Shown here one piece after another: positions 1,868-8,367 of a stretch of DNA of 32,458 nucleotides (its first letter is position 1; each line of letters begins with the position of its first letter). A model generated the notes under the pieces. That model saw nothing but the letters and a program-made list of their open reading frames with translations. It did not search any database and had not been told where the DNA came from. The DNA is taken from the IMG/VR virus record IMGVR_UViG_3300020370_000020, positions 1 through 32,458 of that record. One strand, written 5' to 3'. A program made the position numbers and the translations under genes. Origin of the DNA: a virus.

Positions 1868-3402
1868 AACATTATTATGAACGTAATGACTACGTTTTAG
1901 ACCATGAAGTCAATAAGACATTTGAAGAAATTCTTTGGATGTCAGATGATGAATTTCGTCAATGGTTGACTGACATGAGAAATACAATCGCATATGCTTG
2001 GGATGAACTTGGTCTACCTCCAAGAGTAGGTTGGAATAAGGATGCTATAATAGAACAATTTAATAAAATGTCATCTTTTCCAGTTCATGAAATGCATAAA
2101 GGTGATAATATAATTCGAAATACATCGGTCATTGGTAATGCTTGTAATCAGTTCTTTCCTACCATGATGAAGACCCGAATTAATTATTCTAAAAATGATG
2201 ATGGTCTTTCAATCTATGACCACTTTGTAGATGATAAATTATCAGAGAAAGTTTACAAATATTCACATCGTCATTTCAAACGTGACAGTTTTTATGAATA
2301 CTCTCAAACAGTTCCTGTTAAAGGTAGAATAAAAGATTTTTTGATTCCTGCTGAATCTGGTAAACAATGGGTAGAAATTTTTGAACGTGATTTTAGAGGT
2401 TTGGGCACTCATGATTATTGGATTGCACCTCATTCCGAAGATACAGAATATACTGGTCATAATCAAGACCTTGTGAACGTAAAATGGTGTACACTTACAA
2501 AAGATGAAATTAAAGAATTAAATATTCCTGAAAAATGTTTAGTAAATGCAAAACTTGATGAAAATGATTTGTTTCGTATTCGTTTATTCAAGTTTGGTCA
2601 AAAAATATTTCCTGTAGGTTTTAAGGCATTTCGTATTTCATGGTGTCAGTATGCAGTAAACTTTCCTCCTCTTACCGCTAAATATTTGTATGAAAGGTAT
2701 ACTGAACACATTAAAGAGCAAGATGTTATCAATGTTTATGACCCTTCTAGCGGTTGGGGCGGTCGTTGTCTTGGCGCTATGTCTGTTACCGATGACCGTA
2801 ATGTCCATTATATCGGGACCGACCCTAATACCGACCATTGGATTGAAGAGTTGGGTATTACGAAATATGAGTATCTTGCAAAATTTTTTAATGAGAATAA
2901 ATATGGCTCACTTTTTCCGCACAACCATACCTATGAAATATATCAGCTTGGTTCCGAAGAAATCAAAAATAATAAGCAGTTTCAAACCTACAAAGGAAAA
3001 CTTGATTTCATCTTCACAAGTCCTCCGTACTTTGCTAAAGAAGCATACTCAGAAGATGAAGAACAATCCTACAAAAAATTCCCAGAATACCAATCTTGGG
3101 TAGATGGTTTTTTAAGACCCACCCTTGAGACATGTATCGAGTATTTGAGACCTAAACGATATTTACTTTGGAATATCGCCGATGCAAAATTTGGTCCTGA
3201 TATGTTACCTCTTGAAGAAGATAGTAACAAGATTTTGAGAGAGCATGGTATGGAGTTTGTTGAGAAAATTAAAATGACATTAGCCTGGATGCCAGGCGGT
3301 AATCGAATTGGTGATGACGGTAAACCAAGTTATAAGAATGCCGTTAAAGTTGATGATAAATGGTTCAAGTTCGAACCAATTTTTGTTTGGTATAAACCTT
3401 AA
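1864..3402 (+). CDS. DNA methyltransferase-like protein with SPPY motif (copy 1)
   Basis: A 512-residue protein with a long N-terminal region and a C-terminal Rossmann methyltransferase domain. DPSSGWGGR (about residues 291-300) is a motif I for SAM binding, followed by YIGTDPN as the strand-2 acidic turn, and TSPPY (about 385-389) is the catalytic (D/N/S)PPY motif of N6-adenine/N4-cytosine DNA methyltransferases. The same architecture, including the conserved xPPLTAKYLYERY-type helix before motif I, occurs in the protein at 17530-18807, so the two are paralogues. The target base and sequence are unknown. The SPPY type is also used by base-modifying enzymes of phages, so protection against host restriction or hypermodification is a reasonable inference. 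Confidence 0.72.
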   Translation: MKHYYERNDYVLDHEVNKTFEEILWMSDDEFRQWLTDMRNTIAYAWDELGLPPRVGWNKDAIIEQFNKMSSFPVHEMHKGDNIIRNTSVIGNACNQFFPTMMKTRINYSKNDDGLSIYDHFVDDKLSEKVYKYSHRHFKRDSFYEYSQTVPVKGRIKDFLIPAESGKQWVEIFERDFRGLGTHDYWIAPHSEDTEYTGHNQDLVNVKWCTLTKDEIKELNIPEKCLVNAKLDENDLFRIRLFKFGQKIFPVGFKAFRISWCQYAVNFPPLTAKYLYERYTEHIKEQDVINVYDPSSGWGGRCLGAMSVTDDRNVHYIGTDPNTDHWIEELGITKYEYLAKFFNENKYGSLFPHNHTYEIYQLGSEEIKNNKQFQTYKGKLDFIFTSPPYFAKEAYSEDEEQSYKKFPEYQSWVDGFLRPTLETCIEYLRPKRYLLWNIADAKFGPDMLPLEEDSNKILREHGMEFVEKIKMTLAWMPGGNRIGDDGKPSYKNAVKVDDKWFKFEPIFVWYKP

Positions 3403-3793: not shown

Positions 3794-6190
3794 ATGAATT
3801 TACGAGAATCAAAATCAATGTTGGCTAAACTGCTAGCCACAGAAAATATCAAAGTTGAACATGGCAATTATGAGACTGCCGCTTTTGACCCTAAAAATCG
3901 TGTGCTTTATCTTCCGATTTTCAAGTGGATGGACGGTGATGTCTATGACCTTCTTGTTCTTCATGAAGTAAGTCATGCACTCAATACTCCTGCTGATGGT
4001 TGGCATTCGTCAGGTAATGAAAAAGGCAAAGGTTACAAGTCATTTCTCAATGTTACCGAAGATGCTCGTATTGAGAAGAAAATCAAACGAAAATATCCTG
4101 GTGCTTCTAAGGCAATGGTTCTTGGTTATCGTGAATTAATGCGTAACGATTTCTTTGGTATCAATGGAATCGAGATTGATGGACTTCCTCTTATTGACCG
4201 CATTAACCTTCATACAAAAGGTGGTGCTTCAATGGGCATTGAATTTACTGAAGATGAAATGAAGTGGGTTGATGAACTGATGTCTCTTGAAACTTTTCCT
4301 GAGATTGTCGAATTTACTGACAGACTTTATGATTATTGTGCAGAAAATGAAAGCATGACCGATGACCATGATTTCAATATGTTTTCTGGTGATGGTGATG
4401 GTGAAAGTGAAGAAGGTGATATGGACTTTGACCCGATGGGCGAAACACCTTTTGAATGGAATGAAGAGTCTGAAGAATCAGAGCCACGTTCTGGTATGCC
4501 TGATGGTGAGGGTGATGAAGGCGAGGAAAATGAGTCTGAATCAGATAATTCAGAAGGTCCATCTTCCGAATCTGAAGAATCTGCGAATGGTTCAGATGAA
4601 ACAAAATCTTCAGATGGTAATTCGCCTGCCGATAAATTCAAAGATGAATTTGAAAACGATGATAATGATGAAACAGATGGTCAAGTCAATCCGTCAAATA
4701 CTGTTGGTGCTGAAGGTGGTGTTGGTACAAATGTAAATCCAAATGCAGTTTCAGGTCCTCGTTCAATTACTGATGAATTCTTTCGCAGAAAAGAATCAGA
4801 ATTGAATGAAGTTATTGATGATGATAGAAAATATATCTATGCCAATATTCCAAAAGCAAATTTGAAAAATATTGTTATTGATTACAAACAATTGGCTCAG
4901 ATGCATGAAAAGTTTTATGGTGATGAATCTCACACTGGTTATTGGGGTACTATGACACCAACCGAGTCATGGTCTTCCGCACCTAAAAGATTCAAAGAAT
5001 TTCGTGAGCAAAATAAATCAATCATTGATTATCTTGCAAAAGAATTTGAGATGAAGAAACGTGCAGATGAGTACAAACGTACCGCATCGGCAAACACTGG
5101 TGTTCTTGAAACGTCAAAACTTTATTCTTACAAGTATTCAGACAATCTTTTCAAAAGAGTGGCTACCGTGACAACCGGTAAGAATCATGGTCTTGTCATG
5201 TTCATTGATTGGTCTGGTTCTATGAATAGTAATATGGCCGGTACTGTAGAACAAATGATGATACTTGTAATGTTCTGTAGAAAAGTTAATATTCCTTTTG
5301 ATGTTTATGCATTTACTGACCGATTGTGGCGTTCAAGTAGCCAAAGAGCCAGTTTAGACATGGAACATGATGCTCCAAGATGGGATTATCAACCTGGTGA
5401 CTTGTGTGAGCAAGAGCATTTTAATTTGATGCAATTGTTTTCGAATAAAATGTCAAACACCGATTTCAATAAAGCCTGCTGGAATGCTATCAATATACGT
5501 GACCATTTCGTAGGTAAAATTAATTGGCATTATAGTGATAGTAAAACACCTTCAATACCAAATGAATACTGCCTAGGTGGTACTCCTTTAAATGCGGCCA
5601 TTGTTGCAGGTCATGATTTGGTTCGAAAATTCAAACGTGATAACAATGTTCAAATTGTTAACACTGTATTTCTGACAGATGGTGATTCAAGTCAATTTGA
5701 CCGTTATCTCGATTCAAGTAAAAAAGAACAATATTTTAATCGTCATGACCATTTGACAATTCGTGATACAAATACAAAAACAGAAGTTGTGAGAAAAACT
5801 GCAATGAGTTGGTCGGCCAGTCACAGAAGCATGACTGAAATCTTATTTGATTCTTTGCGTAAATCAACTGGTGCAAACATCATTGGTTTCTTTCTTGTTA
5901 ATCGTCTTGACCGACATAAAGTTGGTTACTATGCACCTAAATCTTCTGATTATGAAGAAATTATGTCATCATGGCGTAAAGAAAAATGTATTGTAACCCA
6001 AATGGATGGTTATGATAATCTTTATATCATTAAAGACGGTGCTGACCTTCAGATTGATAGTACCTCAGAACTTGACAAAGTTGATGTTGGTTCTAAAAAA
6101 TCTGCAATACGTAATGCTTTCAAAAAAATGAATCGTAAGAAATTACGCAACCGTGTAGTTCTCAATAAATTTATTGATTTGGTAGCATAA
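3794..6190 (+). CDS. CobT-like zincin plus VWA-domain protein (putative metallopeptidase/MoxR partner)
   Basis: A 798-residue protein in three parts. The N-terminal domain contains LVLHEVSHAL with HEVSH at residues 57-61, a zinc-metallopeptidase HExxH motif. Residues about 190-320 are a low-complexity Asp/Glu/Ser-rich linker, as in CobT and other MoxR partners. The C-terminal region carries a von Willebrand A domain with MIDAS DWSGS at 472-476, a conserved threonine in GGTPLNAA and LTDGD further on. It is followed by a CobS-like AAA+ ATPase (6269-7489). MoxR/VWA pairs usually act as ATP-driven chaperones or chelatases, but the HExxH motif makes a protease or metal-handling role equally possible. 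T4-like cyanophages carry genes annotated cobS/peptidase of this type. Cobalamin synthesis is not implied by anything else here. Confidence 0.78.
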   Translation: MNLRESKSMLAKLLATENIKVEHGNYETAAFDPKNRVLYLPIFKWMDGDVYDLLVLHEVSHALNTPADGWHSSGNEKGKGYKSFLNVTEDARIEKKIKRKYPGASKAMVLGYRELMRNDFFGINGIEIDGLPLIDRINLHTKGGASMGIEFTEDEMKWVDELMSLETFPEIVEFTDRLYDYCAENESMTDDHDFNMFSGDGDGESEEGDMDFDPMGETPFEWNEESEESEPRSGMPDGEGDEGEENESESDNSEGPSSESEESANGSDETKSSDGNSPADKFKDEFENDDNDETDGQVNPSNTVGAEGGVGTNVNPNAVSGPRSITDEFFRRKESELNEVIDDDRKYIYANIPKANLKNIVIDYKQLAQMHEKFYGDESHTGYWGTMTPTESWSSAPKRFKEFREQNKSIIDYLAKEFEMKKRADEYKRTASANTGVLETSKLYSYKYSDNLFKRVATVTTGKNHGLVMFIDWSGSMNSNMAGTVEQMMILVMFCRKVNIPFDVYAFTDRLWRSSSQRASLDMEHDAPRWDYQPGDLCEQEHFNLMQLFSNKMSNTDFNKACWNAINIRDHFVGKINWHYSDSKTPSIPNEYCLGGTPLNAAIVAGHDLVRKFKRDNNVQIVNTVFLTDGDSSQFDRYLDSSKKEQYFNRHDHLTIRDTNTKTEVVRKTAMSWSASHRSMTEILFDSLRKSTGANIIGFFLVNRLDRHKVGYYAPKSSDYEEIMSSWRKEKCIVTQMDGYDNLYIIKDGADLQIDSTSELDKVDVGSKKSAIRNAFKKMNRKKLRNRVVLNKFIDLVA

Positions 6191-6268: not shown

Positions 6269-7489
6269 ATGAATTTGACTGATAAACAAAAACAATTCGT
6301 TGAACTGGCAATCTCTGAAGGTTTTGGTGAAACCATCACCACACGAGATATCAAAGAACTTCAAGCCAAACATGGCAGTTCTTTATCCGTGCAATGGTTG
6401 CAAAAATCTGATGTACTTCGCATGTCTCGTGGTGTTTATCGTCTGCCAACTATTGCCGCCAATGGTGCGGTTGTAATGAGTGAAAGCACCTCTAACCCTG
6501 TATCTTCAGAATCAACTATGATTGCTACCAAAGTAGATGAGAAGGTTACTAAGATTGAACCTTCTCTTCCTGCATCTATCACTAATACTGAAGATGTGAG
6601 TTTTGTTCCTGAAGTAGATGGAACATTTGTTCCGTTCGGTCAATTCAAAGATATTCATAATATCATTAAATCAAATCTGTTTTATACAGGTTTCATTACT
6701 GGTCTGTCTGGTAATGGTAAAACTTTTCTCGTTGAACAGGCTTGTGCCAAAGCCAAACGTGAAATGTTTCGTGTCAATATTACTGTTGAGACTGATGAAG
6801 ATGACCTTCTCGGTCACTACGTATTGATTGACGGTCAAACTGTATGGCAAGATGGTCCTGTCATTCAAGCCATGGACCGTGGTGCCGTTCTGCTTCTTGA
6901 TGAAGTAGACCTTGCATCTAACAAAATCATGTGTTTGCAACCAGTTCTTGAGGGTAAAGGTGTTTATGTCAAAAAGATTAATCGTTTTGTCAAACCCAAG
7001 ACTGGTTTCAATGTGATTGCTACCGCAAACACTAAAGGTAAAGGTTCTGATGATGGCCGTTTTATCGGTACTAACATCCTCAATGAGGCTTTCCTTGAGA
7101 GATTTGCAATTACCATTGAGCAAGAGTATCCTACTCCTGCTACCGAGAAGAAAATTCTCGTTGGTATCATGCAGTCACTTGGGTGTCTTGATGATGAGTT
7201 TGCACAAAAACTTGTTGATTGGGCCGACATCATCCGTAAGACATTCTATGATGGTGGCATTGATGAAATCGTTGCTACCAGACGCCTTGTTCACATCGTA
7301 AATGCATTTAAGATTTTCGGTGACCGAATGAAGGCGATTCAACTTTGTGTCAATCGTTTTGATGACGAAACAAAACAGGCATTTCTTGACCTGTACACCA
7401 AGGTTGATGGTGATGTTAATAAACCTTCAGAAGAGACTTCAGAAGGAGGTGAACCTCAAGTTGATTCTGATGACAGAACACCTTTTTGA
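6269..7489 (+). CDS. CobS/MoxR-like AAA+ ATPase
   Basis: A 406-residue AAA+ protein. The N-terminal 60 residues look like a small winged-helix or helical domain; Walker A GLSGNGKT is at 145-152 and Walker B VLLLDEVD at 207-214, followed by sensor-like ATANT and an arginine-finger-like FLERF. The best family fit is CobS/MoxR ATPases, which work with VWA proteins such as the preceding CobT-like gene. The C-terminus is acidic and Ser/Gly-rich. ATG 6269 is 46 bp after a near-perfect -10. An intrinsic terminator follows immediately, so the pair forms a separate transcription unit. In cyanophages this gene is usually annotated cobS (porphyrin biosynthetic), but the true substrate is not established here. 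Confidence 0.85.
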   Translation: MNLTDKQKQFVELAISEGFGETITTRDIKELQAKHGSSLSVQWLQKSDVLRMSRGVYRLPTIAANGAVVMSESTSNPVSSESTMIATKVDEKVTKIEPSLPASITNTEDVSFVPEVDGTFVPFGQFKDIHNIIKSNLFYTGFITGLSGNGKTFLVEQACAKAKREMFRVNITVETDEDDLLGHYVLIDGQTVWQDGPVIQAMDRGAVLLLDEVDLASNKIMCLQPVLEGKGVYVKKINRFVKPKTGFNVIATANTKGKGSDDGRFIGTNILNEAFLERFAITIEQEYPTPATEKKILVGIMQSLGCLDDEFAQKLVDWADIIRKTFYDGGIDEIVATRRLVHIVNAFKIFGDRMKAIQLCVNRFDDETKQAFLDLYTKVDGDVNKPSEETSEGGEPQVDSDDRTPF

Positions 7490-7556: not shown

Positions 7557-7823
7557 ATGGAAATCAAATTAACAGGGAATGTAATCATAAGGCACCAATC
7601 AGTTCCCGAATGTCAATGGTGCGATAAAGCAAAAGAATATCTAGAAGAAAAAGGGCTGAAATATACAGTCATTAATTCTGATAAACGTTTTTTTGGTGAG
7701 ATTATGAAACACACCAAATCAACGTCTGTACCTCAAATTCTCATTAAAGGCGAGTTTGTGGGTGATTATAAAGGTATGTTACAATATTTTCTTGATAAGG
7801 AGGAAGAAGATGTCGATTGTTGA
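7557..7823 (+). CDS. Glutaredoxin
   Basis: An 88-residue thioredoxin-fold protein with redox centre CQWC at residues 19-22, preceded by a VIIRHQSVPE strand and followed by the KAKEYLEEKGLKY helix typical of glutaredoxins. TSVPQILIKG (cis-Pro segment) and GDYKGMLQYF (GG-like glutathione site) complete the fold at normal length. It overlaps the peroxiredoxin gene by 14 bases, so both proteins should be made together. In Haemophilus-type enzymes Prx5 and glutaredoxin domains are fused in one chain, so this glutaredoxin is the probable electron donor of the neighbouring peroxiredoxin. Phage glutaredoxins can also reduce ribonucleotide reductase. Confidence 0.9.
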   Translation: MEIKLTGNVIIRHQSVPECQWCDKAKEYLEEKGLKYTVINSDKRFFGEIMKHTKSTSVPQILIKGEFVGDYKGMLQYFLDKEEEDVDC

Positions 7824-8367
7824 TGTTGACGGTAGAATTAAACACCAAGAAATATTTAAATATCAAAGAAAAGTACCTAATACTACTTTTAAGATTAGGA
7901 AAGGCGAAGATTGGTATCAAGAAACCTCTGAAGATTATTTTAAAGATAAAGTATCTTTAGTAGTATCTTTGCCAGGTGCTTTTACGCCTACTTGAAGCAG
8001 TATGCAACTTCCAGGTCTGGAAGCATTATATGATGATTTCAAGGCAAAAGGCATAGATGAAGTTTATTGTCTTTCGGTAAATGATTCATTTGTTATGAAT
8101 GCATGGGCTAAAGATTTAGAAATTGAAAACGTTAAAATGATTCCTGATAGTAATGGAGAATTTACTAGAGACATGAATATGTTAGTATGGAAAGAAAATT
8201 TAGGTTTTCGTAGTTGGAGATATGCTATGTTCATAAATGATATGAACGTTGAATATGTAATTTCGGAAAAACCTCCTCAAGGATTTTTTGACCTTGATAC
8301 CGACCCATATGAAAAAACTAAACCAGAAATTTTGATTCATATGTCAAAAGATTATAATCAAAAATAA
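7810..8367 (+). CDS. Prx5-family peroxiredoxin, candidate selenoprotein with in-frame UGA (Sec62)
   Basis: Read through one TGA (7993-7995), the frame gives a normal-length 185-residue peroxiredoxin of the Prx5/AhpC-TSA type. SLPGAFTPT at residues 53-61 is the active-site lead-in and codon 62, the TGA, falls exactly on the peroxidatic cysteine, followed by SSMQLPG as in PGAFTPTCSxxHLPG. The frame then continues intact through VNDSFVMNAW, PDSNGEFTR and SWRYAMFI (the last with the conserved active-site Arg) to a stop at 8365. A hairpin with an AGGTCT loop starts right after the TGA (separate entry). Start ATG 7810 has AAGGAGGA at 7797-7804 and overlaps the glutaredoxin gene. The protein should reduce H2O2 or organic peroxides with selenocysteine. 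Alternatives are a sequencing error or a decayed gene, which do not explain the hairpin or the intact downstream frame. Confidence 0.88.
7993..8026 (+). promoter_or_regulatory. Candidate bacterial SECIS element with its UGA codon
   Basis: UGA at 7993-7995 is followed 17 nt later by the hexamer loop AGGTCT (8013-8018) closed by CTTCC (8008-8012) and GGAAG (8019-8023). A lower helix ATG (8002-8004)/CAT (8024-8026) is separated by a three-base 5' bulge. From memory, the E. coli fdhF element has the same AGGUCU loop, also closed by C-G, at the same 17-nt distance, with a 5' bulge in the stem. This is the structure recognised by SelB. Confidence 0.85.

Follow-up and report, generated by a model that had tools for sequence, protein, structure and literature searches.

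A T4-type phage peroxiredoxin gene with UGA at its peroxidatic position and a SECIS-type hairpin downstream: a proposed phage selenoprotein

We consider it very probable that the peroxiredoxin (Prx) gene at 7810-8367 of the window (the whole stretch of DNA analysed, a record of 32,458 bases that may be a fragment) encodes a phage selenoprotein, in which selenocysteine (Sec) is inserted at an in-frame UGA by the machinery of a host that is unknown; no protein, RNA or selenium data are available. Many independent contigs have the UGA at the catalytic position, together with a conserved hairpin and selection on the reading frame, and TGA serves as a normal stop elsewhere. The features of the locus are the following.

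7557..7823, plus strand: glutaredoxin gene, 88 aa, with CQWC (Pfam Glutaredoxin PF00462, 45.9 bits), overlapping the start of the Prx gene by 14 nt
7797..7803, plus strand: Shine-Dalgarno-like AAGGAGG, recognised from the sequence, 6 nt before the Prx ATG
7810..8367, plus strand: Prx5-type peroxiredoxin gene (Redoxin, PHROG 2281, 1nm3, Prx5 fold, purifying selection before and after the UGA)
7993..7995, plus strand: TGA, proposed selenocysteine codon 62, in frame at the peroxidatic Cys position
8008..8023, plus strand: bacterial-type SECIS hairpin CUUCCA-GGUC-UGGAAG, its loop beginning 18 nt downstream of the UGA; a seventh G-C pair is possible

The Prx frame runs for 185 codons from ATG to TAA (MSIV...SLPGAFTPT-TGA-SSMQLPGLE...NQK-TAA) and contains, as the initial annotation had claimed for this Prx5-type gene, a single internal stop, the TGA of codon 62, exactly at the peroxidatic Cys of the PxxxTxxC motif; it is proposed that the gene is full length only when this UGA is read through as Sec. 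The Pfam Redoxin model spans the TGA, scoring 81 bits with '1 TGA' inside the match and 90 bits with the TGA read as Cys. Read through as Cys, the protein matches PHROG 2281 ('peroxyredoxin antioxidant') with 207 bits, and its nearest solved relative is the Haemophilus influenzae Prx5-glutaredoxin hybrid 1nm3 (E 3e-41). A fold search with a structure model (pLDDT 81, pTM 0.81) returned 1nm3 as the best chain, followed by other Prx5/type II peroxiredoxins (TM 0.7-0.9). The criteria for a Prx5/type II enzyme are met by the Redoxin domain, the PxxxTxxC(U) motif, the catalytic Arg and the Prx5 fold; position 62, Cys87 and the arginine of RSWRY are invariant in Sec and Cys members alike.

Since TGA lies one base from TGC and TGT, a nonsense mutation, a sequencing error or a decaying pseudogene could have hit the Cys codon by chance. 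The distribution of homologues argues against this. Codon 62 is TGA in 10 of the best 80 viral homologues (the window itself excluded) and TGT or TGC in the other 70 (54 and 16, respectively), which is beyond chance and agrees with the earlier argument that a random stop would rarely land on this codon. An unbiased pattern scan of IMG/VR, in which PGAFTP[TI] was followed by TRR so that TAA, TAG, TGA and TGG were all detectable alike, gave 31 TGA, 2 TAA, 2 TAG and 1 TGG matches; 30 of the 31 TGA matches are peroxiredoxins, and the remaining one (L185) together with all five TAA, TAG and TGG matches are unrelated frames. The tabulation of Cys versus TGA that the initial annotation had called for therefore yielded only these two states, with no TAA or TAG at codon 62 in any Prx among the best 80 viral homologues or in the TRR scan. 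The same TGA occurs in 30 viral contigs besides the window, from 28 metagenome ids, and the corresponding scan with PGAFTP[TI]-TGY gave at least 120 matches, the viral relatives with TGC or TGT numbering more than 100. Four TGA lineages are distinguished by the sequence after U, namely S..QLPGLE (the window), TKQHLPRLE, S[NS]RQLPSLE and STQQVPQFE; the TGA sequences are mutually related and their counts are not independent. The reading as chance damage, to which we give next to no credence, is refuted by the homologues, and even TGC or TGT reads for one contig would leave the others unaffected.

Conservation of the frame past the UGA also speaks against mutation or error. All 26 distinct complete genes retain the TGA, with dS close to 1 in most comparisons, and downstream of it dN lies below dS by a factor of several to more than ten in the pairs compared (dN/dS of 0.231/1.34 for the window and L003, 0.057/0.73 for L003 and L004, and 0.084/1.38 for L194 and L209). 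Judged from these comparisons, the frame beyond the TGA is under strong purifying selection. Frame decay in homologues, named beforehand as an outcome that would overturn the selenoprotein reading, was looked for and is absent; the frame continues intact to its natural TAA, as first described, and its part downstream of the TGA covers 118-136 codons in most homologues. Another reading is that two proteins are made, a short N-terminal fragment and a C-terminal one initiated anew at the ATG at 8002, which lies two codons past the TGA in the window, with the UGA acting as a regulatory stop. An equivalent of that ATG is absent in L005, L184 and lineages 2-4, and an internal restart is therefore not a conserved alternative; moreover, the active site would be divided between the two pieces, and the constancy of UGA at the Cys position would remain unexplained. 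We reject this scarcely credible arrangement in favour of a single read-through protein.

The sequence directly 3' of the window TGA (AACUUCCAGGUCUGGAAGC) contains the hairpin listed above, which, like the overlapping glutaredoxin gene, was absent from the initial account. The bacterial SECIS model requires a loop of 3-9 nt, a stem of 4-16 bp, a G in the first two loop positions, a distance of 16-37 nt from the UGA and an energy of -7.5 kcal/mol or lower (PMC13188914, a 2026 review). The window hairpin meets this geometry with its 6-bp stem, its GGUC loop and its distance of 18 nt, and with -8.4 kcal/mol it also meets the energy threshold. A downstream hairpin (energy -6.8 kcal/mol or lower) was found in 18 of 18 distinct TGA regions, the apical loop beginning 18-20 nt past the UGA and having G in loop position 1 or 2, whereas 45 distinct Cys regions had no SECIS-like hairpin in the same place (mean -2.0, best -5.6 kcal/mol); the Mann-Whitney p for this comparison ignores relatedness and is descriptive only. 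In lineages 1-3 pairing of the 7-bp helix reaches 99.1%, against 22-57% once the partner strand is slid; at the final pair, G-C gives way to A-U in six sequences and to G-U in another one. The hairpin of lineage 4 lies in the same place and differs in sequence (GUCC-CUCA-GUU-UGAG-u-GGGC); it scores well only with a bulge allowed. The codons of the stem are constrained too: every one of 23 stem Leu codons is CTT, and CCA, CTG/TTG and GAA are nearly fixed, even though CTG accounts for only 4% of the Leu codons of the window. We attribute this near-fixation to the constraint that the hairpin places on the codons.

Fold energy by itself carried little information. The -7.5 kcal/mol threshold was met by 15 of 18 TGA regions but also by 13 of 45 Cys regions, and the fold energy of the window was unexceptional against shuffles when taken alone (z -0.37). 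Criteria based on energy only were discarded, as they do not discriminate between TGA and Cys regions; a hairpin of -5 kcal/mol or lower at the required spacing does separate the two groups (15 of 18 versus 0 of 45).

Recoded stop codons occur in phages, and this precedent lends some support to an altered genetic code that reads TGA as an amino acid (Trp, Cys or Gly), or to a suppressor tRNA encoded by the phage. TAG reassignment in phages has been reported (PMC9523058). However, 14 of the 32 listed ORFs of the window terminate with TGA, no other recognisable gene of the window is interrupted by an in-frame TGA, and only ordinary anticodons occur among the tRNAs found on 34 TGA-phage loci. A changed code is contradicted by the normal use of TGA as a stop and by these anticodons, would leave the hairpin unexplained, and is in our judgement extremely improbable. 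The selenoprotein interpretation of the initial annotation is supported by the restriction of codon 62 to TGA or Cys, the lack of decay and the confinement of the SECIS-type hairpin to TGA forms.

If this interpretation is correct, ribosomes in a Sec-making host would arrive at the UGA of codon 62 of the Prx mRNA, and host SelB carrying Sec-tRNA would bind the hairpin 18 nt downstream, so that Sec is inserted in place of termination. The predicted product is a complete Prx5-type peroxiredoxin whose peroxidatic residue, Sec, would attack peroxide during infection; the resulting selenenic acid would be reduced via glutathione and the glutaredoxin from the overlapping upstream gene, possibly with the assistance of Cys87. 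The use of host Sec machinery, the enzymatic activity, the reduction by glutaredoxin and the benefit to infection are inferences only, and protection of infected cells from peroxide by the Prx, a reasonable inference, is untested. Bacterial decoding of UGA as Sec competes with termination, and this competition favours a further reading, in which the Sec-UGA is mainly a switch: without selenium or SelB, synthesis would be shut off early and Prx output would be matched to the selenium state of the host. No data in this analysis bear on the switch, which is compatible with the selenoprotein reading and which we think rather unlikely to be its main role.

Glutaredoxin probably reduces the Sec peroxiredoxin in the clade of the window; this is inferred, without reduction data, because the nearest solved relative fuses both domains. 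That relative, H. influenzae HI0572 (1nm3), is the closest PDB entry by sequence and fold and likewise pairs Prx5 with glutaredoxin, but it has Cys instead of Sec and is a single fused chain with the Prx first, whereas the phage locus consists of two overlapping genes with the glutaredoxin first. The upstream glutaredoxin of this clade has a CxWC motif, and the 14-nt overlap is present in 11 contigs of the clade (the window and ten others); the glutaredoxin neighbour is restricted to the clade, and lineages 2-4 have different Prx neighbours. Just upstream of the redox pair in the window lie a gene (3794-6190) whose large product matches no Pfam family and by eye has a VWA/CoxE-like metal-binding appearance, and a gene for a MoxR/CbbQ-type AAA ATPase (6269-7489).

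Searches of 25 phage records, most of which are fragments, gave no SelA, SelB or tRNA-Sec above cut-off; weak tRNA-Sec matches on phage contigs coincided with ordinary tRNAs where compared. A second selenoprotein was not recognised in the TGA-phage contigs, where, by eye and among the matches listed, only the Prx site is broadly conserved and the other shared TGA frames look like shadow frames of conserved genes.

The phage origin stated in the initial annotation is borne out by the T4-type genes (PHROG) of the window, which encode a DNA polymerase, a sliding clamp, both clamp-loader subunits, UvsX and a DnaB-type helicase; the polymerase is about 52% identical to marine cyanophage polymerases. 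The window also encodes a 1342-aa Lys/Glu-rich phage protein (25847-29875) whose only matches, all weak, are to PHROG families without a known function. Permuted (two-piece) tmRNA genes occur on Sec-phage contigs (L223:8980-9401, L229:1270-1587, L232:8243-8663 and L188:3850-4248), with tags including ANNNDYTSASMAMAA and ANNADYTPAQVALAA, and an Rfam alphaproteobacterial tmRNA model matches two of the tmRNA-bearing contigs. The tmRNA type points to an alphaproteobacterial host, which is a hint and no more; a host search by tag pattern in 385 genomes from the class to which a marine Rhodospirillaceae belongs gave no match and was uninformative.

Several Sec-phage contigs carry further genes. Contigs of lineages 1 and 2 include full-length genes for ammonium transporters (L223:4387-5610 and L229:10688-11839; PF00909, about 337 bits); the PHROG family they match has no assigned function. 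The T4-like contig L229 also encodes a Rieske-type ring-hydroxylating oxygenase-like protein (1983-3071), ribonucleotide reductase, primase, exonucleases and PhoH. The 31-kb lineage 4 contig (L233/L234), whose viral status rests on IMG/VR and PHROG matches, has cargo unusual for a phage: PEP carboxykinase, IMP dehydrogenase, a class II tRNA synthetase-like gene, tRNA nucleotidyltransferase and two solute-binding proteins.

When phage Sec, phage Cys and cellular Sec Prx were placed in trees, the phage forms split from the cellular Sec forms with full support, and the phage Sec proteins are nested within the phage Cys proteins as two groups, one with the window and lineages 2 and 3 and the other with lineage 4. 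A single Sec group appeared in 0 of 200 bootstrap trees, and a single origin of the phage Sec forms was not rejected by the AU test (p 0.367). On the basis of these sequence trees we favour two origins, without claiming them as shown. We suggest, tentatively and with a little less than even confidence, that marine T4-like phages turned their own Cys Prx into a selenoenzyme at least twice, with a new in-frame SECIS each time, tapping the selenium machinery of the host to boost an antioxidant enzyme. Three Cys Prx (L013, L014 and L015) lie beside or inside the main Sec clade in a quick tree with no hairpin left, and may possibly be Sec-to-Cys reversals or a Cys sister group.

The GenBank phage matches to the window Prx are all below 60% identity. 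The Cys Prx of PHROG 2281 from cyanophages and Pelagibacter phage HTVC008M belong to the same family (48-61% identity) and share the Prx5 motifs and the second Cys, but their catalytic codon is TGT in HTVC008M and TGC in Synechococcus phage DSL-LC03; the metagenomic Cys relatives, unlike the phage Sec Prx, lack a SECIS-like hairpin. The bacterial Sec-Prx (TxxU; Eubacterium acidaminophilum PrxU, Sargasso Sea and GOS sequences) resemble the phage proteins in having a Sec-UGA in PxxxTxxU and a downstream bSECIS (PMC13188914, PMC1088965, PMC2398784), but they are cellular and form a separate tree branch, whereas the phage-borne Sec forms lie among phage Cys forms. Reyranella, Rhodospirillales, Enhydrobacter and Rokubacteria have cellular Prx5 in which the corresponding codon is UGA, and SelB was above cut-off in two of the three cellular Sec-Prx5 genomes checked, the third being a metagenome-assembled genome. 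Another AhpC-like family, seemingly with a signal peptide, has UGA in IGAFTPTU-T[RT]EV in Rokubacteria and deltaproteobacteria (L086, L090, L093, L101, L115, L141 and L148) and appears to be a further cellular Sec-Prx type.

Sec peroxiredoxins with the TxxU motif have been described from bacteria and are plentiful in marine metagenomic data (PMC1088965, PMC2398784, PMC13188914); some environmental Sec-Prx reads may be phage-derived yet unrecognised, which is untested. The 2026 review of the prokaryotic selenoproteome leaves phages and viruses unmentioned (PMC13188914), and according to a marine survey the families beyond a few metalloproteins had no or very few viral sequences. In line with the earlier statement that phage selenoproteins are hardly described, our full-text literature searches found none; most subscription papers and all preprints were outside their scope, and priority is unproven. 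The nearest published hint of phage Sec use is the report of tRNA-Sec genes in huge wastewater phages (PMC10747093), which rests on tRNA annotation only, without a selenoprotein, whereas the phages described here have a selenoprotein gene and no tRNA-Sec found on the fragments.

What is apparently new here is a proposed bacterial-type selenoprotein of the peroxiredoxin family that is carried, and was apparently evolved, by phages. Selenoproteins have been catalogued in bacteria, archaea and eukaryotes, and in a few animal viruses. The ORF list of the window ends the Prx at the UGA, as standard gene callers do, and such proteins are therefore probably split or missed in viral catalogues. If the proposal is true, a phage of this kind depends on Sec-decoding hosts, its UGA is therefore a host marker, and its recoding serves an auxiliary metabolic function.
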